DNA from: Halichondria panicea
Lineage: Eukaryota > Porifera > Demospongiae > Suberitida > Halichondriidae
Reading direction: 5' to 3'
Assembly: GCF_963675165.1 (NCBI RefSeq)
Contig: NC_087390.1
Span: forward strand, 5,928,250-5,992,249
Length of the DNA: 64,000 bases
Shown here in pieces: positions 1,290 through 38,700 of the stretch (positions are counted from its first letter, which is position 1; every line of letters starts with the position of its first letter). Under the pieces are notes generated by a model that was not told the origin of the DNA, searched no databases, and saw only the letters and a list, made by a program, of their open reading frames with translations. A program made the translations under genes and the position numbers.

Positions 1290-7230
<5,941 letters not shown>

Positions 7231-7459
7231 GAGGGAGCAGCTACACCCCCTCTTTCGCCATGGCAACGCGCATGCGTACAAACAAACCACAACTTTGTTT
7301 TCGAACATTGTTGTTCTGTTGCCTATGGCATTGAGTGGGCGTACCTCATAACTAACCTTCAAAGAAATAAACTTCTGAGCTAAAGAAAGACATTGCAAGC
7401 CAAAATTCAAGCAATGCAGATAGAAAACAGTAATCTGTATTGAGCAAAGACAGTGAAAA
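7231..7459. promoter_or_regulatory. bidirectional promoter with X-box-like and NRF1-like sites
   Basis: The start codons of the minus-strand C10orf67-like gene (7230) and the plus-strand giant gene (7460) are only 229 bp apart, head to head. At 7252-7266 is TTTCGCCATGGCAAC: one perfect RFX half-site (GGCAAC), a weaker partner half and the usual short spacer. Directly after it, CGCGCATGCGTA at 7267-7278 matches the NRF1 consensus except for one T. Both lie 22-48 bp upstream of the minus-strand start. Which gene they control is inferred from distance only. Confidence 0.55.
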
Positions 7460-10411: not shown

Positions 10412-10469
<58 letters not shown>

Positions 10470-11784: not shown

Positions 11785-14700
11785 GTGAGCAAAGAGGGAC
11801 ATTATTACCACAAACGCCGTAAGTGTATATAGGCCCCTCTCATAATAGTATACCAGTATAATTGTAATCGTCAGTCAAAGAGATTAACATTCAACGTCTT
11901 AGGCTCCTCTTTTGAAGATGATAATCTTCACTTATAGCATACTATCAGGATGTGATTAGGTGCTCACATTTTTGCATGGAGCTAAGGTATAGCTAAAGTA
12001 GCCCAACCTTATAGTACATAGTAGATGTACTGTGTGTGTGTGTGCGTGTGGTGCGTGTGCGTGTGTGTGGTCCTTGTTGGCTACTGTACAATACCTATAC
12101 TTGTATGTGTGTGGTCTTTGCTTAGTCACTGCGGTTTGCTACTATGTAATAGATACATAAGACAGTATACAGGTATGACTGACAATAATATTGTAGAATA
12201 AAACGACTTTGTACAGAAACGTTTACTACGTTCCAATAGCAAAATCTTATTGTTCAAGCTAAACATGATGTGAATGATAATGACTACTAAATTAGGTCTA
12301 GTGTACTCACTGACCCATATATATATATAGCTGCTATTGTTTGTAAATGTATATAGTCTCATAACTGTTCAAACAATGTTCTGTGAGGTGGGGCACCTCG
12401 TGATGACAAGTGTGCAGGTATGTGTAGGGAAGTTTGATGATGCATGTACTCCTGATGATGAAGGAACGGATGTGATCAAACAATAACAGAACACATCTGG
12501 CTCAATCGGACGAAGAATGCTAGTGCCCAACCTCCCTATTGCTAGGTCATAATCACATGCCATGCTCAGTGTGTAGTATCCCTGTATGTGGCATAGAGAT
12601 AATAAAATAATCGCACTTATCCAAAGTTAAAAACTTACAGATTTGTCCACTGGTAGAGATGTCGTTCCACAGGCTCTCCAGTCCGCATCACCAGATTGTA
12701 TTAGAGTGCAGTTTCCTGTCTCCTTGATGCAGTTCTGATAGAGGTTCACTGTAGAGTTGACTCGAGTGGTCAGAGAGCTCACTAAAGACTGTAGGCTGTT
12801 CAATTGAGTCGTGAATCTATTATCAGTTACGTTCATTAGTTGTGCAATGTCCGCTTCACTTGCTTCTTTTGTCTTGTTCAATTGGAACTTAAGCTCTTGG
12901 ATTTCTTGCATCAAGTTGTCCATGCCTTGGTTAGAACTCACTAGAGCATACACAGACAATGCAATTGCTGCCACCATGGCAGTTAATATCGAGAGAGAAA
13001 AAACTACACGTATGCACTTAACCTTCAAGTTAGTCTCCTTCTTAATTTAAGTTGCAGCAGCGTACATGTGTGTGTTGTCTGCAATGCTCCTCTCAGCCAA
13101 CTTAACTCTGGCATCAGTTAGTTCATCTGCTTTGTCTTGCAGCTCCGGTACTTCCTCGTACACTGGCAGTGTGTGGCCCCCATAGCAAGGATTATTTTCC
13201 ATATGTTGTGTACACAATCCTAATTATTGTGCTGCTGTGTTAATTGATTTTGTACTCTTCTGTATTTATTATGCGTCGGTGGTTGTGTTAGTTTACTGGA
13301 CTTTATACCCAGGATCATATTTCCTTATATTGCTGATCACGTGACGTACAATCAATTACAACCATCAAATCCAGTCATGTGACCGTACTTTAAATGACTT
13401 ATGCGCATATGCAACTGGTGTTTGTTCTACTTCCCTATTATACTCATTGTTGTATGTATGAATTCAATAAACAGATTACCTCTCATGTGATGTTTGTTCT
13501 ACTTACGTATTGTCATGTGCTCTCGTGCAATCTAGTGGGATGTTCTAGAATTCTCCATTCTAAACTCCTCATGTTCTATTTTTAGTGTCATTTTTGTTGG
13601 TCTCTGCACCACATAATTATATGGTTGAATTTATGAATATAAGTTGAATCTGATGTATGAGCCTATATATAAGCTATAGTATAGACTATAGGTTACAATT
13701 ATTTCCTAGTTAATCTGGCTATAGCTAGAACTGTTTATCTGAGAAAGAACTCGACACTCATAAAGTTATGTTACAGTACAAGCATGCATGTGCTTTTACG
13801 CAGGCATACATTGAATATAGCATTGTTTGGGGCTTTCTTTCTGCATGTCCTGTAACAACACTGTGATGGATTGCAGTGGGATTATGCATTATGAGTTGTT
13901 CAGGCTTTCCTTCTGTCCAACACTAAACTTCCTATATCTCAATAGTACAATCATGTAGTCACTGTGGTTTGCTGCTATAATAGTTACACAAGACAGTATA
14001 CATTATGATAATGACTGACAATTGTACAATAAAATGACTTTGTACAGAAACATAGCATGTGTTTGTGACGTAGGTTGGACAGAACGCCTACCATGGTTTT
14101 AAGTGGAGTTGTGTACCTTTTCCAATGAACTCTTGACGCTATAATTATAGATACTAAACAATGTTCTGTGAGATGGGGCACCTTGTGATGACAAGTGTGC
14201 AGGTAAATGTGGAGAAGTTTACAAATAAATGTTCTCCTGACGATGAAGTAATGGACGTAGTTTTACAAACACAGTCCACATTTGACCCAGACTGACGAAG
14301 AGCAGTACTCTTCAAACTCCCTGATGATGAGTCATACTTACACGCCATGCTCAGTGTGTAGTATCCCTGTAGTGGCATATTAGTACTAGAACAATCATAC
14401 CAAAACTTATTAATACATGCAGCAAAGTTGACAACTTACTGGTTTGTTTGCTGGTAGAGATGGTGTTGTACAGAGTTTCCAGTACGCAGAACCAAATGTA
14501 CAAATACGACTTCTTGTGTCTTGACTGCAGTTCTGGTAGAGGTTCACTCGAGAGTTGGTCTTGCATCTGAAGCTGTTGGATTTCCAGCATCACGCTGTCC
14601 ATGCCTTGGTTAGAACTCACTAGAGCGTATGTAGACAATGTAATTGCTGCTACCATGGCAATAGCTGACAGGAAAAGAACAACAACAAAGCTACCCTTTT

Positions 14701-17700
14701 GGCAAAGTTGATTGAAATCCTCTGTTTGCTTTAACTCTGTCATCACTTAGTTCAGCCGCTTTGTTTTGCAGCTGTACTTCCTCGTACACTGGCGGTGTAT
14801 GGTCTCCATAGCAAGGGTTCTTTTGCATGTTAAAACTTCAGGATTTGCACACACTGATTGTAACCAACGGCCTATTGTGGTCAATGATGCGTAGCCTATA
14901 CAATAGCTTTCAACTTATTAGGTATAGCATATCGTAACATCCTTAATTTATACAAACAATGTTATCTCTGTTGAAACATGAAAGTTCATCTCTGTGCAAA
15001 TATTCCTAAAGTTCTACTGTTTCAGTTTCAATGTTTACATAACTTTAATGCGTAGAGATACTGGTTAGCTAGGGCATCTGGTGATCACTAGGAACACGTA
15101 AAAAACAAACGACTGAATAGCAGCATGCTGTGACCCTCCCAGCACTGACGATTTCTTTCATCAAGCTATCCATGCTTTGGTTACAACTCATGTACACAGA
15201 CGACGCAATTGCTGTTACCATGGCAAAGGCTAATAGGGAGAGAGAGAAAACCAAACTGATGCACTTAGCTTCCAGTTAGTCTCTTTTTTGGTGGAAGCTT
15301 CAGCGTTTGTATTGTCTGCAATGTTGCTTGCACTCCTCTCAGTCAGCTTAACTCTGGCATCAGCTAGTTCCGCCCTGTTTGGCAGCTGTACTTCCTCGTA
15401 CACTGGCAGTGTATAGTCCTCGTAGCAAGGGTTCTTTTCCATGTTGCAGTAATACCTCACAATTGTAGCTGTCTATATTAATTGTGCTGCTGATTCTATA
15501 CTCCTTACTCACTTACTCACTAATGTTTAATGGGTGACTGTGTGTTGCTGGATAAATTGTCACATAAAGCTACATGCACCTGGTATTTGCTCTATAATCC
15601 CCCATTATTTTACGTACATGCATTAAAATTAATTACCTTGCCAATGTTATAATAATTATGTCATACAGTAGGCTGCTCAATTGAGTCATGGTTGCTTCAA
15701 TTGATTCTACTCCCTGAGAATACGCTCCTTCGCATAAGCCGCTTCTCATAGCATACCAGAGTTGCAATTGATTGCTCATGTGTATCAATTAACTGAACGC
15801 ATTTTCATTTTGAGTTGCGGTTCATATAAAATTAGCCAACAAACGGCTATAATTATGTATGTGGTATAATAGTACATCAATCACTGCAGTTTTGATACAA
15901 TGTAATAATTATTTAATAAGAGCAGGTATAATTATTATAGTTATTATTTACTACGTTCCAATAGCTGTTCAAGCTAAACATGATGTGAATGATAATGACT
16001 ACTAAATTAGGTCTAGTGTACTCACTGACCCATATATATATATATAGCTGCTATTGTTTGTAAATGTATATAGTCTCATAACTGTTCAAACAATGTTCTG
16101 TGAGGTGGGGCACCTCGTGATGACAAGTGTGCAGGTATGTGTAGGGAAGTTTGATGATGCATGTACTCCTGATGATGAAGGAACGGATGTAACCAAACAA
16201 TAACAGAACACAACTGGCCCAGCTGGACGAAGAATGCTAGTGCCCAACCTCCCTATTGCTAGGTCATAATCACATGCCATGCTCAGTGTGTAGTATCCCT
16301 GTATGTGGCATAGAGATAATAAATAATCGCACTTATCAAAGTTAAAAACTTACAGATTTGTCCACTGGTAGAGTTGTTGTTCCACACGCTCTCCAGTTCA
16401 CATCATCAGATTGTGTTAGAGTGCAGCTTCTTGTCTCCTGGATGCAGTTCTGATAGAGGTTCACTGGAGAGTTGACTCGAGTGGTTAGAGAGCCCACTGA
16501 AGACTGTAGGCTGTTCAATTGAGTCGTGGTTGCTCCATTGGCTGTGTTTAGAGAGCTCACTGAAGACTCTAGGCTGTTCAATTGAGTCATCGTTGCTTCA
16601 TTGGCTGTGTTTAGAGAGCTCACTAAAGACTCTAGGTTGTTCAATTGAGTCATCGTTGCTCCATTGGCTGTGTTTAGAGAGCTCACTGAAGACTCTAGGT
16701 TGTTCAATTGAGTCATGAATCTATTATCAGTTACGTTCATTAGTTGTGCAATGTTTGCTTCACTTGCTTCTTTTGTCTTGTTCAATTGCAACTTTAGCTC
16801 TTGAATTTCTTGCATCAAGTTGTTCATGCCTTGGTTAGAACTCACTAGAGTATATACAGACAATGCCATTGCTGCTACTATGGCAGTTAATATGGAGAGA
16901 GAAAAAACTACATGTATGCACTTAACCTTCAAGTTGGTCTCCTTCTTAATTGAAGTTGCAGCAGCGTGCAAGTTTGTGTTGTCTGCAATGCTCCTCTCAG
17001 CCATCTTAACTCTGGCATCAGTTGGTTCAGCCGCTTTGTTTTTCAGCTCCGGTACTTCTTCGTACTCTGGCACTGTATAGTCCTCGTAGCAAGGGTTCTT
17101 TTCCATGTTGCAGTAATACCTCACAATTGCAGCTGTCTATATTAATTGTGCTGCTGATTCTATACTCCTTACTCACTTACTCACTAATGTTTAATGCATG
17201 GGTGATTGTGTGTTGCTGGATAAATTGTTCACATTCTCCTGAATTAACGCTACATGCACCTGGTATTTGCTCTATACTCCCCCATTATTTTACGTACATT
17301 CATTAAACTGCAGCATAATTACCTTGCCAATGTTGTAATAATTATGTCATACAGTAGGCTGCTCAATTGAGTCATGGTTGCTTCAATTGATTCTACGCCC
17401 TGAGAATACGCTCAGTTTGTTTGGCCTTATCTCCCTGCTGTACTTCCTCGTATACTGGCACTGTACTGTCCGCATAGCAAGGATTATTTTCCGTACACAT
17501 TCCTAATTATCGTGCTGTGTTGATTTTGTCGGTGGTTGTGTTAGTTTACTGGACTTTACCCAAGATCATAATTCCTTATATTGCTGATCACGTGACGTAC
17601 AACCAATTACAACCATCAAATCCAGTCATGTGACCGTAAAATGACTTATGCTCATGCAACTTGTGTTTGCTCTACTTCCTCATTGTATGAATGAATAGTT

Positions 17701-20700
17701 ACAATCAGCCATAATTATTTCCTTGCAATGCAAATTGATCGTAAGGAAATAAATGGCTGATCTCCTGAGTGTTTCCTAGCTGTATTACGTTACTGCTATT
17801 ATGAAGGAAATCAGTGGTATGCTAAGAATAGTGTGGGGTGTGGGGTGTAGTTTTCTTTATGCCTCAGTGCGCATGCGCAAGCGAGGTATACGGTAGTGTG
17901 TTTGTGTGTCTGTGTGTGTAGACTATTTCAGCTGCTCAAGGATCAATGAAGTGCAAGTAAGAGTTTCTATAGGCTTCTAGTCATGTTTTCTTGGCTTGCA
18001 ATGGTTGGATTTGCAAAATAAAGCTTCGTTCTCTAGTTTTGCTTACTTGGAATGCCATTGCAGCCTTTTCAGAAGAGTTTGTAGCAAAATTTGTTCACAG
18101 AGTGTTGCTACTCTACTTAGCAATTAGCTCTCCACTAGAACGCTAGCTGTAGAGTGAGAAGAGAGCTGCAAGGCTCTGCTCTGCTGACTTGCAGCCATTA
18201 ATTTTAGACTTGAACTTTTGGCATCAATCGTTTTTAACAACAATCATGGTCGCCAATCATACCCGAGTTTCTCGCATGCAGCAAATTATTCATCCAATAA
18301 TAAATTAAATGTGTGTATAAAAGCTAGCTTAGTTAGTAGCTATATGTTTTATGTAGCTTTGGCACCTCCACCGAGGCATCAGCACCGCAGTGCTTTCATT
18401 GTCAAAACGGTGTCTGCATATATACGCATATGCACCTGCATGGTGTTTGCTCTACTTCCCGGCCTATTATATCCATTACTGGATGTGAACTGATTACCTC
18501 TCATGAGATATCTGTCATGTTTGCGTTTTATCATGTGCTCTCGTGCAATCTACATGCATCTGTGGAATGTTGTAGAATTCTCCATCCTATATAAGTGTCT
18601 GTAGTCACTGCGGTTTGCTACTATAGTTACATGAGACAGTTCTTATGACTGACAATTGCAGAATGAATGGCTTCATATACAGAAACACAGTATGTGTTTG
18701 TGACGTAGGTTGGACAGAACGCCTACCATGGTTTTAAGTGGAGTTGTGTACCTTTTCCAATGAACTCTTGACGCTATAATTATAGATACTAAACAATGTT
18801 CTGTGAGATGGGGCACCTTGTGATGACAAGTGTGCAGGTAAATGTGGAGAAGTTTACAAATAAATGTTCTCCTGACGATGAAGTAATGGATGTAGTCACA
18901 CAAACACAGTCCACATTTGACCCAGACTGACGAAGAGCAGTACTCTCCAAACTCCCTGATGATGAGTCATACTTACACGTCATGCTCAGTGTGTAGTATC
19001 CCTGTAGTGGCATATTAGTACTAGAACAATCATACCAGAACTTATTAATACATGCAGCAAAGTTGACAACTTACTGGTTTGTTTGCTGGTAGAGATGGTG
19101 TTGTACAGAGTTTCCAGTACGCAGAACCGGATGTACTAGTACAACTTCTTGTGTCTTGACTGCAGTTCTGGTAGAGGTTCACTCGAGAGTTGACTCGAGT
19201 GGTCAGAGAGCTCACTGAAGACTGTAGGCTGTTCAATTGAGTCATGGTTCCATTTTTTGCCATATCAACCGATTTCTGTAGCCCTAAGCCATCAGTTTTT
19301 AATCGTGTAAGAACTCTCTGCAATTTTGCAGTCGCTTCTCTTGTCTTGTTTAATTGCATCTGAAGCTGTTGGATTTCCACTATCACGCTGTCCATGCCTT
19401 GGTTAGAACTTACTAGAGCATATGTAGACAATGTAATTGCTACTACCATGGCAATAGCTGACAGGAAAAGAACAACAACCAAAGCTACCCTTTTGGCAAA
19501 GTTGATTGAAATCCTCTCGTTTGCTTTAACTCTGTCATCACTTAGTTCAGCCGCTTTGTTTTGCAGCTGTACTTCCTCGTACACTGGCAGTGTATGGTCT
19601 CCATAGCAAGGGTTCTTTTGCATGTTAAAACTTCAGGATTTGCACACACTGATTGCAACCAACGGCCTATTGTGGTCGATGATGCGTAGCCTATACAATA
19701 GCTTTCAACTTCTTAGGTATAGCATATCGTAACATCTTTAATTTATACAAACAATGTTATCTCTGTTGAAACATGAAAGTTCATCTCTGTGCAAATATTC
19801 CTAAAGTTCTACTGTTTCAGTTTCAATGTTTACATAACTTTAATGAGTAGAGACACTCGTTAGCTAGGGCATCTGGTGATCACTAGGGAACACATAGAAA
19901 CAAACGACTGAATAGCAGCATGCTGTGACCCTCCCAGCACTGACAGGTGGCATTGACATTGAATGTTTTGACCAAGTTTGCGCAAGATATGAGTCTCTTG
20001 AATGCCGTCGGTAGTTGGTGCTTCGTATTCACACCTGATGTCTGTTGTGTAGTAACCCTGCATGGGGAATTAATGCATGGCAGATACCAACATCCATCAA
20101 AGGCCATCTATTCGTTTTAGCTCTTATGGCTCAATCTACCTCGTGCAGTTGTATGTATTCCCTCGGGCTGCGCCCTCGGGGAATACATACAACTGCCCTC
20201 GGTGGTACAAATCCATTACACCCTTGATATTTAACTATTACATGTATATTCATGTAACTATGTACACAGTACCTCCTTATAAGGCAATGCGGCGGTCAGG
20301 AAAACACGCTTTAAAAATATATTGTATAGCTCAATGGCAATCCTTACAGGCACTTCTGAAATAGGATATTGTACATACATCCATGCATGCATACATGCCC
20401 AGAATAAACTTACTGTTTTGGTAATGGGTTCAAATGCTGTTTGACACCATGTCCAATAAGTGTCTATAGCTCTTGGGCCGATTGTGCAACTTCTTGTCTC
20501 CTGGATGCAGTTCTGGTAGAGGTTCACTGGAGAGTTGACTCGAGTGGTTAGAGAGCTCACTAAAGACTGAAGGCTGTTCAATTGAGTCATAGTTGCTGCA
20601 TTAGTTGTGTTTAGAGAGCTCACTGAAGACTGAAGACTGTTCAATGCTGCCATGAAATCATTAGCCGTTATATTCAAAGCATTTATTGAAGACAGTAGGT

Positions 20701-23700
20701 TTACCAACTGAGCCATATTTTCCATGAAACTGTCAGTTTCTATCCGTGTGAAATCGTCTTTTAATTTTGCAATATCCATTTTTGTCTTATTTAATTGCAT
20801 CATAAGCTCTTGATTTTCTTTCATCAAGCTGTCCATGCCTTGGTTAGAACTCACGTACACGGATGATGCAATTGCTATTACCATGGCAAAGGCTAATAGG
20901 GAGAGAGAGAAAACCAAACCGATGCACTTTGCTTTCCAGTTAGTCTTTTTCTTGATAGAAGCTTCAGCGTTTGTATTGTCTGCAATGTTGCTTGCACTCC
21001 TCTCAGTCAGCTTAACTCTGGCATCAGCTAGTTCCGCCCTGTTTGGCAGCTGTACTTCCTCGTACACTGGCAGTGTATAGTCCTCGTAGCAAGGGTTCTT
21101 TTCCATGTTGCAGTAATACCTCACAATTGCAGCTGTCTATATTAATTGTGCTGCTGATTCTATACTCTTCTTTCACTTACAGTTTTAATGAGTGCATGGT
21201 TGTGTGTAAGGAACAGTTGCTGGATAAATTGTTCACATTCTCCTGAATTAAAGCTACATGCACCTGGTATTTACTCTATACTCCCCCATTATTATACGTA
21301 TATGCATTAAACAGCATAAAATTATCTTGCCAATGTTGTAATAATTATGTCATACTTGCCTTACCATATATTATTTAGAACACACCTAGGTGTTTAATCT
21401 GCGTGCCGAGAATTGACTCAGGTTACCGTGGTACCCGAGGCGCAGCTAAGTGCATTATGTAACGCATCACACATTAGTTTCTAGTATGGTAGATGAACTG
21501 TAATAGTCTTACTGCATCGTTTATTGATGGGTAGATGTGCATGCCATGGTGTGTTGCACAATACTTCTGATGTACAGAATCTGTTTGTACAGATAGTGGT
21601 CTTCCTTACACAGTGTTGGTAGAGGTTCACTGGATAGAGCTCGAGTTCAATCGAGGAATTAGAGAATTCACTGAAGGCTGAGGATTGGTTATAGTTTTGA
21701 ATCTATCCTATAATTGATTCTACTCCCTGAGAATAGGCTCCTTCATAAGCTGCTTCTCATAGCATACCGGAGTTTCAATTGAATGCTCGTGTATCAATTA
21801 ACTGAACGTAATTTCCTTTGAGTTGCGGTTCATATAAAATTAGCCCAACAAACGGCTGCATGTATGTGGTTAAAAGTACAGTCACTGCAGTTTTGAGCTA
21901 CAATGTAATATTTTATATATAAGAGCAGATATTATAGTCCAGTAGCGGATCTATAGGATTCTTGAAAAGGGGGTTCCAGTAGCACAGGGTTTTAAGAGAG
22001 GCAAGACTCTTCCAATTTTTCCTAAAAAAAGGTCGTCACTTTTCATAAACAGTCAGCATGCGCTGTGCTGAAGAGAACTTTTAGCCTGCACAGACAAGGA
22101 CTAAAGGTAAGTGAGAAGTGCATGTGAAAGGTAGTAAGAAAGGAACAACTTGCTAACTAGTTGCTTAAGCCTCCCACTCGCTTATGTGTCAGAGGGGGGT
22201 TCAATCGAACCCCCTCTGGATTCGCCACTGTAGCCACTGATGATTTTAATTAAAATGCTATACAGATCATTCTGAAAATTCTGTTGTTCAGCTAAACATG
22301 ACAATAATGTTTGAAGTACTGGTAATGGCAACTACCTTAGCAACTAGTACAAACGTGAATGATAATGACTACTTCGGTCTAGTACTCACTGACCCATAAC
22401 TGATTAAGCTGCTAGCGTTTGTAAATGTATAGTCTCAAACAATGTTCTGTGAGATGGGGCACCTCGTGACAACAAGTGTGCAGGTAAATGGAATGAAGGT
22501 TGATGATACATGTGCTCCTGAAATATGGGATGTAGTCAAACAATAACAGTCTACATTTGACCCAAACTGACGAAGAGTGCTAGTGTCCAAACGAAGTGCT
22601 GGTGGGTCATACTTACACGCCATGCTCAGTGTGTAGTATCCCTGCATGTATATGGCGTAGATAGAATCATAACAGCAGTTATTAATAAATAGCAAAGTTA
22701 ACAACTTACTGATTTGTTCACTGGTAGGGATGGTGTTACACAGTCTTTCAAATACCCAGTACCTGATGTACCAGTGCAACTTCGTGTCTCCTGGATGCAG
22801 TTTTGGTAAAGGTTCACTGGAGAGTTGACTCGAGTGGTCAGAGAGCCCACTGAAGACTGTAGGCTGTTTAACAGTGCCATGTTTGCATTATTTGTCGTAG
22901 TAAGTGTGTTGATCAAACCAGCAGTTTCGGAATCCGTTTTTGTCTTGTTTAATTGCAACATAAGCTCTTGGTTTTCTTTCATCAAGTTGTCCATGCCTTG
23001 GTTAGAACTCACTAGAGCATATGCAGACAATGCAATTGCTGCTACCATGGCAATGGCTAACAGGGAGAGAACAACAACCAAAGCAATGTACTTAGCTTTC
23101 AAGTTAGGCTGGCTTATAGAAGTTGAACTTATTGACTCGTCAGCATTGGTATTCAAGTTCCTCTCACTCAGTTTAACTCTGATATAGGGTATGTCTCGCA
23201 GCAGTACTTCCTCGTACTCTGGCTCTGTATGGTTTTCGTAGCAAGTATTCTTTTGCATTTCGGAATTGCACAACTGTAGCAGCCTATTTCACTGTGCTGA
23301 TTATATCACTATATACTCATCTCTTTCATTATAGGTGTAATGTTGTGACAGAGTGAGTTGTTATGTATCCAAATAGTTGATAGAGTTTTGTGTACTTAGA
23401 TTTCTTGGTGCCGTCAAAAAGTACTGACCAGCAGTAGTAAATACTATAATTGCTATTACATTTGGTGTTCGCTGCACATGTCCCATATAGTATATTATAG
23501 TCTTCCCACTGTATGTACTGAACTTGTGATCACTACTAACAACCAAACCGATGCACTTAGGCTTCAAGTTAGTCTCTTTCTTGATAGAAGGTGCAATGTA
23601 CATGTTTGTGTTATCTGCTGTATATGTTGCTCGAAATCCTATCAGTCCGAAATCAGTTTGTTTGACCTTATTATCTTCCATTTTGCAATCCTTGTATTGA

Positions 23701-26700
23701 GAATGGGTGGTGTGTGTGTATGCTATGGGAACAGTTGCGGGGGTGTTGTTTGTCACTCAGAGTCTGTTGATTTTAGTATAGGATAAACTACACCAACGAG
23801 TAGAATATTTGAATAAGTGCGCTTCTTGTAGATTATGCTTCCATGTAAGCTACTGTTTTCAGCCTATTGTTTTCAGCCTACAGATCAAAGTGTAGTCTAA
23901 AGCTGCATATGCACATTATTTGCTGTACTCTCCCATTATTACTACATACATGTGTGCATTGACACACAGCACCCTTTGGAACAGCATCCTTTAGGCTTTC
24001 CTCCTGTTCTGTAACAACACTGCAATGATATTGTTATTGGTTTAATACCAATGGCCTTCCTTCTGTCCTGTGCATGGCAATACTCTACACGATGTTAGCT
24101 ACATAATTTTTTTGAGCTATACTGAATTATGTGTATAGACTTTACATGCTCCATCTTGGTTTTTATCAGTCATATCATATGTGTTCGTAGTGCTAGTATA
24201 TATAATGAGAACGGTTCAATTTGGCTGCAGATAATTATCATTCTTGATATAATTTATCTACTAAACTTAGTAATGATAGCAGATATTTTTCAGTTATTGG
24301 CCGAGGTTCCATGGCAATGAACTGAAATGAACAGTACATAAATAAAAAAAAGATTGCAACTACTTTGGTCAAGTACTCACTGACCCATAACTAAATACTC
24401 TGTCAGCGTTTATAATTATATTGTTTAGTTCAAACAATGTTCTGTGAGGTGGGGCACCTCGTGATGACAAGTGTGCAGGTAAATGTACGAAAGCTTGTTA
24501 ATACATGTGCTCCTGTTGGTGCGGTATCAGCTGTAGCCACACAAAGACAGGCTACGTTTGACCCAGACTGATGAAGACCAGTAGTGTCCAAACTCCCTGA
24601 TGATGGGTCATACTTACACGCCATGCTCAGTGTGTAGTATCCCTGTACACGGCATAGATATATGGTGTCATCATACAGCATGCATTCAGAAAAGGTAACA
24701 ACTTACTGATTTGTTCACTGGTAGGGATGGTGTTGTACAGAATTTACGGTATGCAGAACCAGATTGTGTACTAGTACAGCTTTCTGTCTCCTGAGTGCAG
24801 TTTTGGTAGAGGTTCACTGGAGAGTTGACTCGAGTGGTCAGAGAGTTCACTGAAGACTGAAGGCTGCTAATTGCATTGACTGTAGTAACCACTTGTCCAG
24901 GGCTTAAACTGTTCAGTACACTCTCCAGGGTGCTCACTGAAGACTGCAGGCTGTTCAATTGAGTCGTAGTTGATTGATTGGTTGTGTTTAGAGAGCTCAC
25001 TGAAGACTGCAGGCTGTTCAATTGAGTCACGGCTGCTCCATTGGTTCTGTTTAGAGAGCTCACTGAAGACTCAAGACTGTTTAATTCTGCCATGAAATTA
25101 CTATTTGTTACATTCAAAGCATTCACTGAAGACAGTAGATTTCCCAACAGAGCCAGATTTGCAATACTAACCGTGTTCATGCCATCAGTTTCTATTTGTG
25201 AGAGAGTATAGTACGTTTAGATATTCATTAATTGTGCACCATCTGTTTTACTTTCTTCTTTTGTCTTATTTAATTGCATCTTTAGCTCTTGGAACTCCAG
25301 CATCACGCTGTCCATACCTTGGTTAGAAATCACTAGAGCATACACAGACAATGCAATAGCTGCTACCATGGTAATGGCCAACAGGGAGAGAACAATAACC
25401 AAACTGATGCACTTAGCTTTCAAGTTGGTCTCTTTCTTGATAGAGGTTGCTGCAGCGTTTGTGTTATCTGGGATGTTGCTTGCACTCCTCTCAGTCAGTT
25501 CAACTCTGACATCACATTGTTCGACCTTATCTCCCAGCTGTAATTCCTCGTATACTGGCAGTCTACTGTCCTCATAGAGAGGATTATCTTCCATTTTAAA
25601 ATTGCACGATTGTAGCAGTGTTTCTTACTGTGCTGATTATATACTCATCTTGTGTATTATTTTCCCCGAAACAGTTGATGGTGTCGTGTATACCTATAGA
25701 TTTCTTGGTGCCGTCAAAACTCCCAGACCAGCAGTGTCAGGGTTGATTTAGACCTTCATGTATACTGTTGTGTACTGCACGTGTCCAATATCAGTATGCC
25801 TATAATTATTATACTTATAATTATACTGTACTGTACTGAAGGAACTGTGTTGGTTCAGTACTGTCCTCATAGCAATTAAGGGTTATTATATCCATTGAAA
25901 TTGCCCAAGAGTAGCTGCCTACCTTAATAATCATATAATGCATGGATACACTAGTAGCGTATTTGCTAACTGAATGTGTACCCAATCATCTTTCATTATA
26001 GGTGCAATGTTGTAGTGTGTATTGTTATTCCCCTAACAGTTGATGGTGTGTTGTATGCTTAGATTTCTTGATGACATCAAAGCACAGTAATAAATACTGT
26101 GCAGCTCTAAAGCAACCCGGAAAATACCCAGTTGATTATAGAGCTGCGTACATGCACACTTGCTGTTTGTCACATGTCCCATAATTAATGTCTGCCTATA
26201 ATTATGCTGTACTGCATGATGACTACTATAACTGTGTGTGCTATAATTAGTAGATATGACATGCAACTACACCAGAAAGTAAAAGATCTAGTGGCTATAT
26301 TGCTCTCGCCTCTCAAACAAGAACGTGGAGTGCCTTAATTTGTGTCTCCGTAATTTATTATTAGAATCATACTGCCACCAATTAACTGTATATGTCCCAC
26401 ATGAATACAATAATTATGCTTACTGTACCTACATGATGTGCATTTGCTTATTTGCATTTGCATTATGAAAGGAAAACCAGCAAGCAACACGTAATTAGTT
26501 ACTGTTGTCTGTTTTGAAAGCTGCGTATATAATTATTGAAACCTGTATAATTATGTTTTGTAGTATACATGCCCCAATATATTTCTGCTCCTGGTATAAA
26601 TTATTAGCGCTATATACACTGTATCATTATAGTCAGTTCAAACAATGTTCTGTGAGGTGGGGCACCTCGTGATGACAAGTGTGCAGGTAAATGCAGGGAT

Positions 26701-29700
26701 GTTTGAGAATAAATGTGCTCCTGTTGATGAAACAAAAGATGCAGTTTCACAAAGACAGTGTACATCTGACCCATCTTGACGAAGAGTGCTAGTGTCTAAC
26801 TTTTGTGGTGCTGGGTCATACTTACACGCCATGCTCAGTGTGTAGTATCCCTGTATGGCAAGATAGAATCATACACATAGCCAATTAGTTGCAACTTACT
26901 GATTTGTTCACTGGTAGGAATGATGTTGTACAAAATCTCCGGTACGCAGAACCAGATTGAGCACTAGTGCAGCTTTGTGTCTCCTGAGTGCAGTTCTGGT
27001 AGAGGTTCACTTGAGAGTTGACTCGAGTGGTTAGAGAGTTCACTGAAGACTGTGTGTTGTTCAATTGAGTCATGGTTACCCCATTGGTTGTGTTTAGAGA
27101 GCTCACTGAAGACTGTAGGCTGTTCAATTGAGTCATCGTTGCTCCATTGGTTGAGTTTAGAGAGCTCACTGAAGACTGTAGGCTGTTCAATTGAGTCACG
27201 GTTGCTTCATTGGTTGTGTTTAGAGAGCTCACTGAAGACTGTAGGCTGTTCAATTGAGTCATGATTGCATTGTTTGCTGTATGAATCGAGTTCTGTAGTA
27301 TTATCTTCAATTTTGCAATTTCTGTTTTACTTGCTTCTTTCGTCTCGTTTAATTCCACCTGAAGCTCTTGGAAATCCATCATCAAGTTCTCCATGTCTTG
27401 GTTAGAGTCAACTACAGCATATGCCGACAATGCAATTGCTGCTACCATGGCAATGGCTAACAAGGATACCAAAGCGATGCACTTAGGCTTCTTTGTCTTC
27501 TTGGCAAAGCTGCTTGAAATCCTCTCAACTCTGACATCAGTTGGTTCAGCCGCCTTGTTTTGCAGCTGTATTTCCTCATACACTGGCAGTGTATAGTCCT
27601 CATAGCTAAGGTTCTTTTGCATGTTGAAAATTTAGGATTTGCACACACTGATTGTAATTGCTGGCTTGTTGTGGTTGATTACATAAGCTGCATGGTCTTG
27701 CTATAGAAAGCTTTCAACTTCTTAGGTATAGCATATCGTAACATCTTTAATTTATACAAACAATATAATTGCCGTTGAGACATGAAATGCAAATATTCTA
27801 AATCTATCCTAAACTTCTACTGTTTCAGTTTCAGTGTTTATCTTTATCTTTAGTGAGTAGAGACACTCGTTAGCTAGGGCATCTGGTGATCACTAGGGAA
27901 CACGTATAGAAACGAACGACTGAATAACAGCATGTTGTAACCCTCCCAGTACTGACAGGTGGCATTGACATTGAATGGTTGAGCCACTTCTGCGCAAGAT
28001 ATGCGTCTCCTGAACATTGCTGTTATCTTTATACATACTTACTTATACACATAAAACTTAAATAAGGCAATGCGGCGGTTAGGAAAATTAGTAAGTAGCC
28101 CAGTGGCAATTCTTGCAGGCACTTTTGAAACATGGATATTGTACATACATGCATGCATGCATGCACAGGATAAACTTACTGCTTTGCTAATTGGTTCAAA
28201 TTTCAAATACTGTTCCACACCCGCCCAATAAGTGTCTGTTGTTCTTGGGCCGATTGTGCAATTTCTTGTCTCCTGGATGCAGTTCTGGTAGAGGTTCACT
28301 GGAGAGTTGACCCGAGTGGTCAGAGAACTTACTGAAGACTCTAGGCTTTTTAATTGAGTCGTGGTTGCTCCATTGGCTGTGTTTAGAGATTTCACTGAAG
28401 TCTGTAGGCTGTTCAATTGAGTCGTGAAATTATTATCAGAGCATTTATTGAAGACTGTAGGTTTACCAACTGAGCCATATTTTTCATCAAATCGTCTGTT
28501 TCTATTCGTGTGAAATCTTCCTTCAATCTTGTAATATCCATCTTTGTTTTGTTTAATTGTAACATAAGCTCTTTGTTTTCTTCCATCAAGTTGTCCATGT
28601 CTTGATTAGAACTCACTAGAGCATACACAGACAATGCAATTGCTGCTACCATGGCAATGGCTAACAGGGATAGAACAACAACATGCAAAGGGACGCTAAC
28701 GTTAGTCTTTGTCTTTTTTGCGAAGCTGCTTGAAATCCTCTCGTTCTGTTTAACTCTGGTATCACTTCGTTCAGCCGCCTTGTCTTGCAGCTGTACTTCC
28801 TCGTACACTGGCAGTGTATAGTCCTCATAGCAAGGGTTCTTTTGCATGTTGAAACTTCAGGATTTGCTCACACTGATCTTATTGTAAATGACGGCTTGTT
28901 GTGGTCGATGATGCGTAGCTGCATGGTTTTTATAATTACATAGCTTTCAACTCTTAGGTAGTTATATCTTAACACATGTAACTTACACGACAATTATTAT
29001 AACATGAAATGCATATCTGTGTACAATTATTTTTAAATCTAGCTCTATAATTATAGCGTCATAATTTAAATTATAATGTTTCAGCTTCAATATTTACTTT
29101 AGTGAGTAGAGACACTCGTTAGCTAGGGCATCTGGTGATCACTAGGGAACACATAGAAACAAACGACTGAATAACAGCATGTTGTAACCCTCCCAGTACT
29201 GACAGGTGGTATTGACATTGAATGCTTGAGTCACTTTTGCGCAAGATATGCGTCTCCTGAACATTGCTGTTATCTGGTGCTTCGTATTCACACCTGATGT
29301 CTGTTGTGTAGTAACCCTGCATGGAGAATTAATACATCGTTCATAATACGTAGCTATTAGCTAATAGTCTGAAGTCCCTATAGTTTTTTGGTCAAAAATT
29401 TAGTATGACCTTTAAAACTGGACACATCCACGCCCAAACTAAACTTACTGCTTTGCTGATTGGTCCATATGCTGTTTGACACCATGTCCAATAAGTGTCA
29501 GTTGTTCTTGGGCCGATTGTGCAGCTTCTTGTCTCCTGGATGCAGTTCTGGTAGAGATTCACTGGAGAGTTGACTTCAGTTGTCAGATAGTTCACTGAAG
29601 ACCGAATGTTGTTCACTGAAAACTGTAGGTTGCTCAATTGAGTTATCGTTGTAGTATTTACCATATCAACCGATTTCTGTAACCTTAAGCCATCAGTTTT

Positions 29701-32700
29701 TAATCATGTGAGATCTCTATTCAATTTTGCAATCTCTGTTTCACTTTCTTCTTTTGTCTTGTTTAACTGCATCTTAAGCTCTTGAATTTCTTCCATCAAA
29801 CTGTCCATGCCTTGGTTAGAACCCACTAGAGCGTACACAGACAATGCAATTGCTGCTACCATAGTGACGGCTAACAAGGAGAGAACAACAACCAAACAGC
29901 ACTTCGCTCTCACGTTAGTCTGGTTTTTCGAAATTGAACGATTAATTTTATCGGTATTGCCACTTGAATTTTTCTTGCTGGGCTTTAATCCACCAGTTGG
30001 TACAACCTTGTTGTACAGCTCTATATCTTCGTACACTGATTGGTCCTCGTAGTAAGGGTTCTTTTGCATTTTGATTTGCCTGCTTTTTTTGTTGCCTGTT
30101 GTGCTATCTTGATTCGATCTACTCCTTCTGAAATATTCAACTGCATAAGAGTGCGTGCCTGTGTATATATTCAGGACACAATGTTATTTTTTAGCGTTAT
30201 TTTTGTGAACACCTGTTATTTTTATGAAACAGCAAACAGCTATGGCAGTCACTCACGCATGCATGTCAGTTGATGTAGAGCCCCACCTGGTGTTTGCTAT
30301 ACTGGTCCCTCCCTCCGTTCACTGTGGAGTAGGAGGGGCCAATAATCATGCCCCTCCCCCTTTTAAACCCCAGGGGTAAAGTGTCCGGCCCAAATGCTGC
30401 CAGAATGCTCCTCAGAGCATCTAGTTGGCCCCGCCCCTCCAATTGTTACAATGTGTAATAATTATGGTCAAGGGTTCTTTTACATGTTGAAGATTCAGGA
30501 CATGCACACACTGATTGTAACTGCCGGCTTGTTGTGGTTGATGATGCATAAGCTGCATGGTCTTGCTATAGAATTGTCATAGCTTTCAACTTCTTAGGTA
30601 TAGCATATCCGTAAAAACAAATCATTGATACATAAAAACACATCTCTATACAAATCTAGCATGCATGTAATCTCTTGCATAAAGTTCTATATACTGTTTC
30701 AGTTTCATAATTATATCTTTGGTGTAGTTATATTAGAGACACTCGTTAGCTAGGGCATCTGGTGATCACTAGGGAACACGTAGAAACGAACGATAGAACA
30801 GCAGTATGCTGTGACCCTTCCAGTCGTGATAGATGGCATTGACATTGAATGGTTGTGCCACGTTTGCGCAAGATATGAGTCTCTTGAATAATGTAGGTAG
30901 TTGGTGCTTCGTATTCACACCTGATGTCCGTTGTGTAGTAACCCTGCATGGAGAATTAATACATGGTTGGTTCATAATTATACGTAGCTATCAATAGTCT
31001 GAAATTCCTAGTTTTTAGTCAAAAGACCTTTAAACAGGATATACCTTAAGGTGACATATGTTTTCACAGGTGCATTTTTCTGCGATTTCACTTTTCAGTA
31101 CATTAATTTTTCCCGGTATTTCTGCGAAAATTAATGTTATTCGTAGCGTTTGTAATTACTCGTGTGGTTTTAATGCGATTCATTGCATTTTACAATCATC
31201 TGCAACTGACTGCGAGTTAAAATTAATTTTTGTGATTTTACTCTCATTTGCAGAAATTAATACCCGCGAAAACTTATGTCACATTAAGGTATTTGTCATT
31301 GGCTTTTACTTGTTGGTGTTGCAGTGCTCACTAATGCAAGTCCACTTATTTGGCTGCATGGTCATAATTACGTTTTATGAATGTGTACTCAATACATACA
31401 CCCCCAATTGCAAACTAAACTTACTGCTCTGCTGATTGGTTCAAACGCTGTGTAACACTCTGTCCAATAAGTATCTGTTGTTCTTGGGCCGATTGTGCAA
31501 TTTGTGATCTCCTGGATGCAGTTCTGGTATAGGTTCACTGGAGAGTTGACTCGAGTGGTCAAAGAGCTCACTGAAGACTGTAGGCTGTTCAATTGAGTCG
31601 TGGTTGCCCCATATGCTGTGTTTAGAGAGTTCACTGAAGACTGAAGGCTGTTCAATTGAGTCGTGGTTGCCCCATTCGCTGTGTTTAGAGAGTTCACTGA
31701 AGACTGTAGGCTGTTCAATTGAGTCGTGGTTGCCCCATTTGCTGTGTTTAGAGAGTTCACTGAAGACTGAAGGCTGTTCAATTGAGTCGTGATTGACCCA
31801 TTCGCTGTATATAAAGAGCTCACTGAAGACTGAAGGCTGTTCAATTGAGTCATGGTTGCTTCATTGGTTGTGTTTAGAGAGCTCACTGAAGACTGTAGGC
31901 TGTTCAATTGAGTCGTGGTTGCCCCATTTGCTGTGTTTAGAGAGTTCACTGAAGACTGAAGGCTGTTCAATTGAGTCGTGGTTTCCCCATTCGCTGTATT
32001 TAGAGAGTTCACTGAAGACTGTAGGCTGTTCAATTGAGTCGTGGTTGCCCCATTTGCTGTATTTAGAGAGTTCACTGAAGACTGAAGGCTGTTTAATTGA
32101 GTCGTGGTTGCCCCATTCGCTGTATTTAAAGAGCTCACTGAAGACTGAAGGCTGTTCAATTGAGTCATGGTTGCTTCATTGGTTGTGTTTAGAGAGCTCA
32201 CTGAAGACTGTAGGCTGTTTAACTTAGCCGTATCAACCGAGTTTTGTAGCATAAAGCCCTCAGTTTGTATTCGTGTGAGATCTCTCTTTAACTGTGCAAT
32301 TTCTTTTTCACTCACTTCTTTTGTCTCGTTTAATTGCATCTTTAGCTCTTGGAAATGCAGCATCAAGCTGTGAGTATCCATGCCTTGGTTAGAGCTAACT
32401 AGAGCATACACAGACAATGCAATTGCTGCCACTATGGCAATGGCTAACAGGAAGAGAACAACAACCAAACAGCACTTCGCTCTCCAGTTAGCCTGGTTCT
32501 TCGAAGTCGAATAATTTATCGTATCTGTATTGCCACTCTTGCCTGGCTTTAATCTGACATCAGTTGGTTCGGCTTTTTTTTGCAGCTCTATTTCTTCATA
32601 CACTGGTTGGTCCTCGTAGTAAGGGTTCATTTGCATTTTCACAATTTTTGTTGTCTGTTGTGCTATCCTGATTCTATACTCATTCTTTACTGGATTCTAT

Positions 32701-35700
32701 GAGTGCGCGTGGCTGTGTATATATATACGGAACATGACGTGTTATTTTTGTATGATTAAAACAGCAAACAGTTGTCATAATTATTTCAGTCATGTATGTC
32801 AGTTTATTTAGAGCTACATATTTCTGGTGTTTACTACTTGTTCCCCAGTATTTTTGTATGATCAAAAAACAGTAAACAGTTGTCATAATTATTTCAGTCA
32901 TGCATGTCAGTTTATTTAGAGCTACGTACATACATCTGGTGTTTACTACTTGTCCCCCAGTGACACTGTGCAAAAATTAGGAAGGGGCTGGGCCAATCAT
33001 TGCCCATCCCCCTTTCAAACCCCAGGGGGCAGAGTGTCTAGTCCAATTGCTGTCAGAAAGCTCCTCAGAGCATCTAGTTGGCCCCGCCCCTCTAATCGTT
33101 ACAATGTGTACTAGTACTGATAATTATTAATAATTATTATTTAATTACTTGCATGTGCTATTGAGATATTAAATCACTCACCTATAATTATGGTTGCATG
33201 TACGTAGTTACACTTTATCTCATAACATTCTAAATAATAGTTACTCGTAATTTATAGTACTAGTGCGCAAACCTTGCCCTCGATTTCAAACAAATCACTG
33301 TTGATACATGAAAATACATCTCTATACCATTCTGTACATTAATCTAGCATAATTATAATCTCATACATGAAGTTCTACTGTTTCAGTTTCAATGTTTACC
33401 ATAATTATATCTTTGGTGTAGTTATAAGTAGAGACACTCGTTAGCTAGGGCATCTGGTGATCACTAGGGAACACGTAGAAACGAACGACTGAATAGCAGC
33501 ATGCTGTGACCCTCCCAGTAGTGACAGTCCCAGTACTGACAGGTGGCATTGACATTGAATGTTTGAGCCACTTTTGCGCAAGATATGAGTCTCCTGAACA
33601 TTACCAGTATCTGGTGCTTCGTATTCACACCTGATGTCTGTTGTGTAGTAACCCTGCATGGAGAATTAATACATGGTTCATAATAAATAGTGTGAAACTA
33701 TATACATGACTGTAGTCCTTATCCTGCCCTGAAAGCTTGCTATACTCTTTGATCAAAACGTATGACTTTTGATATGGATTTGCAGTCCTCACTAATAACT
33801 ATACAAACTCTATGTTATTTTAAGACTGGCCACAATTATTTTGCGGATGATTGTGTGTGTGTACCTAAAATTACTGCTCTGCTGATTGGTCCATATGCTG
33901 TTTCACACCATGTCCAATAAGTGTTTGTTGTTCTTGGGCCGATTGTGCAATTTCTTGTCTCCTGGATGCAGTTCTGGTAGAGGTTCACTGGAGAGTTGAC
34001 TCGAGTGGTCAGAGAGTTCACTGAAGACTGTAGGCTGTTCAATTGAGTCATGAACACGTTATCAGTTATATTCAAAGCATTCACTGACAACTGGAGGTGG
34101 TTCAGTTCACTTCTTGTTTCACTGTTTGCTGTATTGAAAGTGTCAAGGGAAGATTGAAAGCTGTTTAGTTTTGATTCCATCTTGAGAATTTGTAGTTCTA
34201 TGGAAGAAACATTTTGTTTGCTTCTTATCTCTTGAATGTGATGGCTCAGCAAAGCATTGCTGCTGTCTTGTGTGGCAACCACAGCCCCAGCTACAGCAGC
34301 TGTGATGATTAGAGCCAGGCAACCGGTGACTATGGCAATGAAAACAGCTATTATTGAGCAATGTTTGCTCCTTTTGATATCATCACTTGTTTCTTTTTCT
34401 CCTTTCTTTATCGGTTGAGTCTTTACAATGGTGTAAGCATCCGGTTCTAGCCTTGATTGTTTATTGAGAGTGGTGTACTGCTTCAACTCAGTATCTACTT
34501 CTTCGTACGTTTCTTCCTCCATTTCAGACAAAAGCCAGATATCGTTTAGTAGTGCCGCATTAGTTACCCTTTTTATTGAAAGCAACTGCTTGTCATTAAT
34601 TTTATTTTCTCACTATTCTAATTATGCTATTCTTTCAACTTTCTATCATTTATTCACACTTCTGATGTTTACACAAGTCCTCATAAGCTGAATCCTAATA
34701 TCCCTTAGCTTCAGAATAGCAGTTTATTGAACCACAACTATTGGTAAAGGCACACATTATAAATTTAATACATTGACAGGCTGTAGTGGCTGTGCAGTCA
34801 CTGTGTGGTCTCTAGCGATAGCGGATTGTTGTTTCTCCCATAGCACACTGTTAGTGTTTTAGTTAGTACATCATGCACCTAAACATGCATGGTAAGGATG
34901 TTGAGGATGGCAACAAGCATGTATAGGAACGCAACTACCCATAGTATCATTTTATACTCGTGCACTAACCATTATTGATTACTCTGCTAGCATTTGTATA
35001 TGTCTAGTCTGATAGCTATAATTATCTGTTCAAACAATGTTCTGTGAGGTGGAACACCTCGTGATGACAAGTGTGCAAGTAAATGTGGGGAAGTTTACTG
35101 ATGCATGTTCTCCTGGTGACGAAATAGTGGATGTAATCCAACAAAGACACTTTACATTTGACCCAGACTGACGAAGAGTACTAGTATCCAACCACCCTGT
35201 TGGTGGGTCATACTTACACGTCATGCTCAGTGTGTAGTATCCCTGTACAAGGCAAATATAGATCATAACATAACAACAGTTATAATAGCAAAGTTGACAA
35301 CTTACTGATTCGTTTACTGGTAGCGATGATGTTGTACAGTGTTTCCAGTACGCAGAACCAGATGTAACAGTGCAACTTTGTGTCTCCTGGATGCACTTCT
35401 GGTAGAGGTTCACTGGAGAGTTGACTTGAGAAGTTAGAGAGCCCACTGAAGACTGCAGGCTGTTCAATTGAGTTGTGGTTGCTCCATTGGCTGTGTTTAG
35501 AGAGCTCACTGAAGACTCTAGGCTGTTCAATCGAGAGTTTATTGAAGACTGCAGACTGTTCAATTGTGTATCAAAAAGATTATCGGCTACATTCAAAGAA
35601 TTCACTGAAGACCCAAGGGTGTTCAATTCTGTCATGAAATCATTATCAGTTGTATTCAAGGTGCTCACTGAAGACAGTAAGCTGCTCAGCTGAGTCGTAG

Positions 35701-38700
35701 TTGCATTGATTTTTGTATCAAACGAGTTGTGTAACCTTAAGCTATCAGTTCTTAATCGTGTGAGATCTTCTTTTGTCTTGTTTAATTGCATCTTAAGCTC
35801 TTGGATTTCTTCTATCAAGTTATCCATGCTTTGGTTAGAGTCAACTCGAGTATACACAGACAATGCAATTGTTGTAATCATGGCAGAAGCTAGCAGGAAG
35901 AGAACAACAACCAAACCGATGCACTTTGCTGAGTTTGTCCTTAAGTTCGTGTTAGAAGTTGAAGTATTTGTTTTATCATCATTGCTCCTCGAAATAGTCT
36001 CGGACAGCTTAAATCTGACATCAGTTGGTTTGGCCTTGTCTTGCAGCTGTACTACTTCACGTACAGGTGGCCTGTGGGTTTCATACGAAGCGTTCTTTTT
36101 CATGTTGAAACTTAGCTAATGAGTATCTGCGCAAACAATCGTAGAAGTCAGTGCTGCACTGTGCTGACTCTTTACTCTATAGATGTACTGTGTCTAACTG
36201 GCTAAGTGCGTGGTTGTGTACAATATTATGCTCGAATGATAGGATCTTGTGTGCTTAGATTTGTTAGTGCATTAACAAAAATAGCAGTAAACAGTATCAT
36301 AGTCACTGCATGTCTGTTGATGGAAAGCATCTGGTGTTTTGTTGTATGTATATACCATTATACGCAGTATAGAGTAAAAAAGGAGGTCAATGCCCCGCCC
36401 CCTTTAAATTAAACCTGCCCCTCCCCAAAACAAACAAAATAATGAAATAATTATTAGCACTGAATGTCTGTTCTGAATACTCCACCCCCTAATCTTCAAA
36501 CCACTTGGAAATGGTGGCAAAACACAAGTCATTCCAATACACATCAGTATACAAACATACATGTACTAAGTACTGAATGGCACAGTCATGTTGCACTGTA
36601 ACTCTAAAGCATTGAATCTAGTTTGCAGTAACCCAATGTAAACAGCAGCTGCTACCAGCAGTCCCAACAACAGGATAATCCATAGCAACAAGGCTCTGTT
36701 CCAACAAGAACCACCTCCTCGACTTGTAGTAGTAGCCTTCTTGACGGGTGTAGGTGAGCTAGTTAGTACATCTTCTTGCACTACCATCTTGGGCACTTCT
36801 CTGGGTCGATGATCAACTGGGTCTGGGATGTCTTCGTAATCAAACGGTTTTCTTGGTTTTGCAGCAGCCATTACTGGCAACGTGTCTTCATAAAGGTGAT
36901 CCCTTACAACCGCTTCTACAGTGCTTGTCTCGGAAAGCTTTTTTATCGTCAGTGTGTTCTCATAATCATAACCAAAGCTCTCGAAAGTGGGACCATCACC
37001 TGGCCGACGAAGCAATGTGTCTTCATATCCATCGCTGCTCTGGCTCAAATCATCTCGTACAACTACATAATCCGAGCTGCTTGGCGAATCATTTACCCTC
37101 TGTCCGGGGATGGTATTGTAGTATATCTGATCACTGTCAGGATAGTTTTGGGACTCAAATCCGGTCATCTCAACTCCATCATACTCTCTAAACTGACTCA
37201 TGTTTGTAGCTGTAATTATTATACTTACAATACTAATACTCTCTTACTGTAGCCCAGTGGCAATCCTTGAAGGCTACTATTCCTAGTTATAGTTTCAATG
37301 TCCTTTGGCTGTATAGATATAGTACTGGGAAATGTTATGTCATGCATTACTGAGGGCATATGTGTGCATGTGTGTGTGTTTATCTAAACAGGTCACAATA
37401 CCATAAATAGTGTGTCCATTGACTGGATGCACCACTATGCATAAATAAACTTTCAGCTGCTATTGGCAACTGTGTTGTTATTGGAAACCACAAGCGGCAT
37501 TTAAAATATCACAACAGTTTGCAATTAAAAACAAAGTCATCTGTTGTATTTCCTTTATAGGATTCTGACACCTCAGCTATACTTCAACTCATCCCTGTGG
37601 TATCAGCAACGAGACATTATCGTCATGGCTACAGATGATGACATCATTAGAGACTCTCCGTACGGGGCGGTGGTTTCCATAGGAACGATGAGCGAGCGCC
37701 CGAAGTACAACGACAAGAGTATCAACCTGAGCCTGGTGATCCAGGATACAGACGATGGTGAGTGGGTGTATCAATTATTAGCTAGCTATACATTTATAGC
37801 CACACTTGTATGTAGTGGAAGCATGGTTGTACAGAATTGTGTCTTGTTACCTTTTATGTACATTAATTGATGCCAAGTTTGTAAACGGTAATAAGAACCC
37901 CTATGACCTCATACGTAATATGATCAAATATAGATATGTACTCATCATTCATGCTTCACCTTCCAGCTAGCGTCATGATTGTACGCAAAGAGGCGTACCC
38001 AGATCCCCCAAATATCCCTGAGGGGCGATGGAGTGTGTATCTCGTCTCGTTACCTAACCGCCCCTCACACACCCTCACCATTGTCTATCACACGGCCACA
38101 CCCACTATCACACTTTCACCGTTTCAAATGACCTTCGAACCCGAGGCCTGGAATATACCTCAAGAGTTGACGGTGATCGCCATTGACGACAGTGTGCATA
38201 TGGCCTCCACATACAGGTCAGGGTTTAATCTGACACTACTGAGTGATGACAAAAATTACGGAGGAATAACTTTGCCAGACTTCAACGTCACCATCAACGA
38301 CAATGATAATGGTGAGCTAGCAATTATACAATAAGTAAAGAGGAGTGCACATTCTATACAAGCCAAGATCTAATTTTTACATCATTGATAAAACCAATAA
38401 TTATAGATTTAGTGTTGCAAATCTCTAGCTATAGTTTCCCTTATCTGATACTGGAATCTGTGATTTATTATATGAATTATACCTATCATTCTGTATGAAA
38501 ATTATGTTCCTCCCGTCAATTAATCCCCAAGAGAGTGTTGTGTATACAATATAGCATCACCAGTTCCAGTGTATTTACAAGATCCCCCTTTTTTGTTTAT
38601 GTAAACAGAATGCGCAATCATTATTGAGTAGCTACACCTACGCACTGATGTCACATGATATGCCAATAAGAATGCCTTGTGAATTACTCATATGTAATGC

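Follow-up and report, generated by a model that had tools for sequence, protein, structure and literature searches.

A tandem family of two-exon genes in a 64,000-nucleotide stretch of the Halichondria panicea genome (hereafter the window) most likely encodes surface recognition receptors, expanded in this lineage, whose head is lectin-like. The window is part of C14, a sequence of 6,511,711 bases in a 131-Mb genome, and holds 12 copies of the gene, all on the minus strand and running from position 36103 down to 12369, eight of which (copies 16, 19, 20, 22, 26, 31, 34 and 35) have intact reading frames. We assign a probability of roughly 0.55 to the reading that the genes form a multigene family of type II receptors at the cell surface, each with a variable head that binds ligand, a neck that oligomerises and a tail that signals. 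The proposal builds on the gene structure, the charge pattern around the span, the conserved cysteines, the selection signal and the wider family, all observed in silico. Beyond the initial annotation of this DNA, we describe open second exons in broken copies, selection, exon choice and a hint of a lectin-like fold.

Exon 1 of each gene encodes the tail, the span, the neck and the first part of the head (C-x6-C...C), and exon 2 encodes the remainder (C...C-x-C...C-x6-C). An in-phase acceptor, CAG/GGYTAYTAYAC (the slash marks the splice site), precedes each of the 12 exons 2, which start at 35242, 33653, 30943, 29316, 26850, 24642, 22641, 20057, 19001, 16298, 14366 and 12581 on the minus strand. 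The intron measures 49-481 bp, is in phase 0 and always lies before GYYT in the 12 copies; the donor is GTAAG in 11 of them and GTAATT in one. Exon 2 occurs as type A, ending in SQNIV (n=8), or type B, ending in ITRCPS (n=4). Similarity among the domains is far above chance, the copy 16 domain retrieving copy 12 at E 2e-39 and copy 14 at E 2e-23. Copies 12, 24 and 29 are broken by in-frame stops and copy 14 by a frameshift in exon 1, and exon 2 is open in all four; further remnants lie near 28, 21.6, 17.4 and 15.4 kb of the window. The initial annotation had placed the family at 12369..36103, with one phase-0 intron at a common site before GYYT and two exon-2 types sharing their cysteines. The interval is exact, with the last exon-2 stop at 12369 and the first gene's ATG at 36103, the intron site is common to 12 of 12 copies, and the two types divide eight to four.

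The type II topology that had been proposed is supported by the residues flanking the span: in 8/8 intact copies the 15 residues before it carry a net charge of +1 to +5, and those after it -3 to 0. The motif Y-E-[E/D]-[V/I/L] is present in 12 of the 13 tails read and takes the form YEEI, the optimum for the SH2 (Src homology 2) domain of Src, in copies 26 and 31. The neck consists of a 63-bp tandem repeat (21 residues, three heptads), found by Tandem Repeats Finder in five places with 1.9-10.4 units, and the number of units differs among copies. We modelled the database protein P0001 ('uncharacterized protein LOC135347949 isoform X2 [Halichondria panicea]') with AlphaFold2, using 24 sequences, and obtained a disordered tail, a helical span and a long helix at residues 94-211; this predicted neck helix agrees with the coiled coil described earlier. 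In the mechanism that we propose, the neck would oligomerise, probably as a trimer, the head would bind a variable ligand such as a glycan, a microbe or a non-self sponge surface, and ligand binding would cause the tail to be phosphorylated on tyrosine and to recruit Src-type SH2 proteins.

All eight cysteines of the head, spaced C-x6-C...C...C...C-x-C...C-x6-C, are invariant in a 14-member alignment (A4) that includes distant paralogues. Within the window, copy 29 departs from this pattern with C-x-Y in place of C-x-C, and exon 1 of copy 14 is disturbed in frame. Profile searches of this C-terminal domain against Pfam-A with the 14 members at E<=1 gave no strong hit to a known family; the best E was 0.04, and each of the seven families that appeared was matched by one member only. 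C-type lectin, SRCR, C1q and fibrinogen, to which the initial annotation could not match the domain, gave no Pfam match with the 14 members at E<=1 or with two domain sequences at E<=10, and were absent among the best 25 of 39 Pfam matches of the full-length protein. Similarly, resistin/RELM gave no Pfam match at E<=1 in the 14 members, nor did H-type lectin PF09458 in 14/14, for which hhalign returned a probability of 0.04 of 100. No sequence match in PDB explained the domain, and three protein searches (8, 49 and 96 matches, most without an organism name) gave no match named from an organism other than H. panicea. The search for a known-domain identity through Pfam, PDB sequences and profiles thus gave only coiled-coil noise from the neck and weak matches. 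We rejected a viral-protein match (E 0.21) and a tissue-factor alignment (E 0.09, 44 of 108 positions covered) as weak, and a canonical H-type lectin by sequence because profile similarity was lacking.

At the level of structure, the AlphaFold2 model of P0001 shows an all-beta head with six strands between residues 222 and 315. The predicted local distance difference test (pLDDT) score of the head is 78-92 by block, except for 58 at 291-300 and 70 at 311-320. H-type lectins rank first in the VIA-align lists of both models at grey-zone Z scores of 5.8 and 5.6, with no Foldseek or sequence support, and the structural neighbours as a whole are mixed. Among the structural matches listed, none is an SRCR, C-type lectin, C1q or fibrinogen structure, an absence to which we attach no weight as evidence. 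The earlier suggestion of a new domain is right for the sequence, where neither Pfam nor PDB gave a match, but is unproven for the fold, where H-type lectins are the top neighbours at those grey-zone scores.

Exon 2 of type A is apparently under strong site-specific diversifying selection, which recurs in a second subfamily. Among the window's type A copies, exon 2 shows a mean pairwise nonsynonymous divergence (dN) of 0.222 and a synonymous divergence (dS) of 0.174, with dN>dS in 20/28 pairs; the corresponding count is 2/28 for the exon-1 part of the domain and 0/10 for the tail and span (5 of the 8 type A copies). We estimated omega and fitted site models with our own Goldman-Yang (GY)-type script, running null simulations (n=40) for the window's type A exon 2 only. 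For ten type A exons 2, comprising the eight of the window and two from C14:5.83 and 5.92 Mb, the one-ratio omega is 1.48 (p 0.026 against 1), and M2a exceeds M1a by a twofold log-likelihood difference (2dlnL) of 57.2, with 37% of codons at omega 4.85. A refit with looser settings and IQ-TREE branch lengths gave 58.0, and the maximum in the M1a simulations was 5.7. In the second subfamily, at C14:6.32-6.37 Mb, 2dlnL reached 30.9 for exon 2 (n=10, matches of at least 62 residues) and 30.4 for the exon-1 part (n=14, matches of at least 34 residues, some from broken copies). The residues with posterior >0.95 are 265-268, 270, 277, 282, 284, 286, 290-292, 296, 298-300 and 303 in P0001 numbering. 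Placed by hand on the AlphaFold2 model, they occupy the loop that follows exon 2's first strand, positions next to and inside C-x-C, and the next long loop; residues 282, 284 and 286 alternate along the strand that carries C-x-C (283-285), and the x of C-x-C is selected in both subfamilies.

The family extends well beyond the window. Half-domain profiles at domain E <= 0.01, run on both strands of the window and of 19 fetched stretches, gave 46 exon-1 and 59 exon-2 matches. These totals count fragments as well, together with at least one duplicate where stretches overlap and a few matches that are probably due to chance. Loci lie at 3.06, 4.49, 5.83, 5.92, 5.94-5.96, 6.30 and 6.32-6.37 Mb of C14 and at 2.32 Mb of C9, with weaker single matches on C4 and C6. 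At C14:6.30 Mb (1558-9179 of stretch L025, minus strand) are neckless two-exon relatives with short tails, some with an additional cysteine pair (GPYC...IIC); we rejected the idea that this locus is an exon-2 array behind a single exon 1, since short, diverged, neckless exons 1 lie between. At C14:5.83 Mb (7011-6032 of stretch L023, minus strand) an N-terminus that resembles a signal peptide by eye replaces the tail and span, so this relative is possibly a secreted version of the receptor, and P0006, P0008 and P0047 have such an N-terminus by eye as well. The anatomy initially attributed to all members therefore holds for the window's intact copies, which have neck and span, but not for neckless or span-less relatives elsewhere. 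Three database proteins, P0081, P0099 and P0004, have best-scoring matches in the H. panicea genome of only 38, 45 and 36% identity, respectively, none above 61% among the matches listed, and hence probably come from other species. The best score of P0081 is against the window group and that of P0099 against the 6.3-Mb group, so both groups probably predate that species split. The protein sequence of P0004 by itself reads through an intron-like stretch at the common intron site.

One annotated isoform suggests that splicing can connect an exon 1 with a neighbour's exon 2. The exons of P0001 match the window letter for letter: exon 1 is that of copy 16 (251/251 residues), and the last part is exon 2 of copy 14 (70/70), compared with 44/70 for copy 16's own exon 2, 67/70 for copy 19 and 43/70 for copy 12 among the four exons 2 compared. 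The annotated intron would thus run from 16353 to 14367 and skip copy 16's own exon 2. Isoforms X3 and X6 of LOC135348196 have their starts some 4 kb apart, each in a different copy, and this hints that neighbouring copies are linked by annotation evidence at that locus as well; these isoforms, like LOC135347949 X2, are RefSeq predictions. If exon 1 may indeed be spliced to a neighbour's exon 2, copies with a broken exon 1 could still contribute their exon 2. With the head interrupted at one and the same phase-0 site in each copy, any exon 1, with its signalling tail, neck and half-head, could be joined to any downstream exon 2, the hypervariable half-head, and the split domain might even be a combinatorial device, in which read-through transcripts make such joins, broken copies are kept as a spare exon-2 library, and the outcome is a splice-diversified, positively selected repertoire for self/non-self or microbe recognition, built on a domain without known relatives in sequence; we regard this far-reaching version as improbable. 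It is conceivable, at somewhat less than even odds, that the swap is an annotation artefact, that each copy uses its own exon 2 and that the selection signal stems partly from gene conversion. Over their first 21-36 nt the type A exons 2 do not differ from that of copy 14, so short junction reads could be misplaced, and only one such swapped isoform was found. Yet a misplaced read would be expected at the nearest acceptor rather than beyond a skipped one, and a signal concentrated, in the window, in loops and alternate residues of one strand, with the x of C-x-C recurring in the second subfamily, fits poorly with this explanation.

The nature of the head is open to two further explanations. 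The first rank of H-type lectins (Helix pomatia agglutinin, the discoidin C-terminal domain and SLL-2; PF09458) in both structure comparisons would suit a true, highly diverged H-type lectin that is membrane-anchored, oligomerised by the neck and binds galactose/N-acetylgalactosamine (Gal/GalNAc)-type glycans. Known H-type lectins are small oligomeric beta-sandwiches; unlike them, the sponge head lacks profile similarity, has eight conserved cysteines, is anchored in the membrane and is split by a phase-0 intron, and we consider this identity unlikely. A second possibility, which we rate as less probable than our preferred reading and below even odds, is a disulfide-rich beta domain that arose independently, resembles resistin-like, phage-fibre or H-lectin heads by convergence, and serves in an adhesion or allorecognition ligand-receptor pair. 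The family has no named sequence relative outside itself, the structural neighbours are mixed, and diversifying selection in tandem arrays fits self/non-self recognition; the lectins' first rank in both comparisons pulls the other way. Returning to the type II receptor reading, several observations weigh against it. The receptor role is proposed from sequence and prediction, and we infer the trimer rather than take it from a model. Copy 35 has a tail without the motif tyrosine, and neckless and secreted-type relatives exist, which means that not every member can function in signalling. Isoform X2 is a RefSeq prediction known through one cluster representative. Type B exon 2 shows no excess (dN>dS in 0/6 pairs), the exon-1 part of the same type A copies has an omega of 0.70 with a weak signal (2dlnL 6.2), and the selected long loop falls in the low-confidence block of the model (291-300, pLDDT 58). 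The chief caveat is that gene conversion among tandem copies can inflate site-model tests, which ignore it.

In overall layout the family resembles class A scavenger receptors and type II C-type lectin receptors, which combine a short tail, one span, a coiled-coil neck and a C-terminal cysteine-rich head; the sponge head differs in having no SRCR or C-type lectin Pfam match. Resistin and RELM proteins are secreted, and the number and spacing of their cysteines differ from those of the sponge head. FREPs, VCBPs, Botryllus fester/fuhc and Dscam are likewise multigene or splice-diversified with variable recognition parts, but they use other domains, whereas the sponge family varies in paralogous terminal exons. 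The head appears to evolve unusually fast, which is common in parts that recognise microbes or other individuals, and our knowledge of the molecules with which sponges discriminate self from non-self and deal with microbes is incomplete. This tandem family, apparently under positive selection and with a domain that Pfam does not recognise, provides named genes and codons to test, and points to possible receptor diversification by terminal-exon choice in an early-branching animal. The eight-cysteine family did not appear in a literature search judged from titles and the openings of abstracts. A published survey of H. panicea immune receptors relied on known Pfam domains to identify them (PMC8242945), and such an approach cannot detect this family.

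Of the individual copies, the intact type A genes are copy 35 (35030..36103; exon 1 36103-35306, intron 63 bp, exon 2 35242-35030; 336 amino acids (aa)), copy 26 (26638..27622; exon 1 27622-26900, intron 49 bp, exon 2 26850-26638; 311 aa), copy 22 (22435..23258; exon 1 23258-22710, exon 2 22641-22435; 251 aa), copy 19 (18789..19623; exon 1 19623-19075, exon 2 19001-18789; 253 aa) and copy 16 (16086..17106; exon 1 17106-16354, exon 2 16298-16086; 321 aa). The intact type B genes are copy 34 (33441..34522; exon 1 34522-33875 with the GTAATT donor, exon 2 33653-33441; 286 aa), whose tail is diverged, copy 31 (30746..32636; exon 1 32636-31425, exon 2 30943-30746; 469 aa), whose neck is the longest with 10.4 tandem 63-bp units at 31563-32219, and copy 20 (19860..21106; exon 1 21106-20414, exon 2 20057-19860; 296 aa). 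Among the broken type A copies, copy 24 (24430..25594) has an in-frame stop in exon 1 and an open exon 2 (24642-24430) with complete cysteines, and copy 12 (12369..13202) has an in-frame stop after the tail and an open exon 2 (12581-12369). Copy 14 retains an open type A exon 2 (14154..14366) with complete cysteines behind a frame-shifted exon 1 from about 14830. Copy 29 (29119..30069; type B, exon 2 29316-29119) combines an in-frame stop in the neck with the change to C-x-Y; the stop stands at 29704-29706 in the assembly, and the database proteins P0023 and P0024 represent an open version of seemingly the same gene, possibly an allele difference. The remnants, also on the minus strand, are the broken type B copy 28 (27873..28847), an isolated and diverged exon-1 end (NLYQHC, 21484..21702), and copy 15 (15068..15442), in which tail and span continue into the truncated end of an exon 2.

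Other apparent surface proteins flank the array. An open frame at 36566-37243 (minus strand) has an apparent cytoplasmic tail with YEDTL, YENTL, YEDTL and YEDIP and one span, and is possibly another type II receptor; the half-domain profiles found no eight-cysteine half-domain between it and copy 35. Beyond it, at 40506-55520 (plus strand), lies an uninterrupted open frame of 5004 codons with, by eye, cadherin/CSPG-like repeats and Gly-Ser-rich inserts; the frames that follow reach 60426 and include a long one at 55642-59517 with an apparent span and a proline-rich end. On the other side, frames at 8503-11412 (plus strand) resemble Calx-beta and fibronectin type III repeats by eye and mark a different surface protein adjoining the array.

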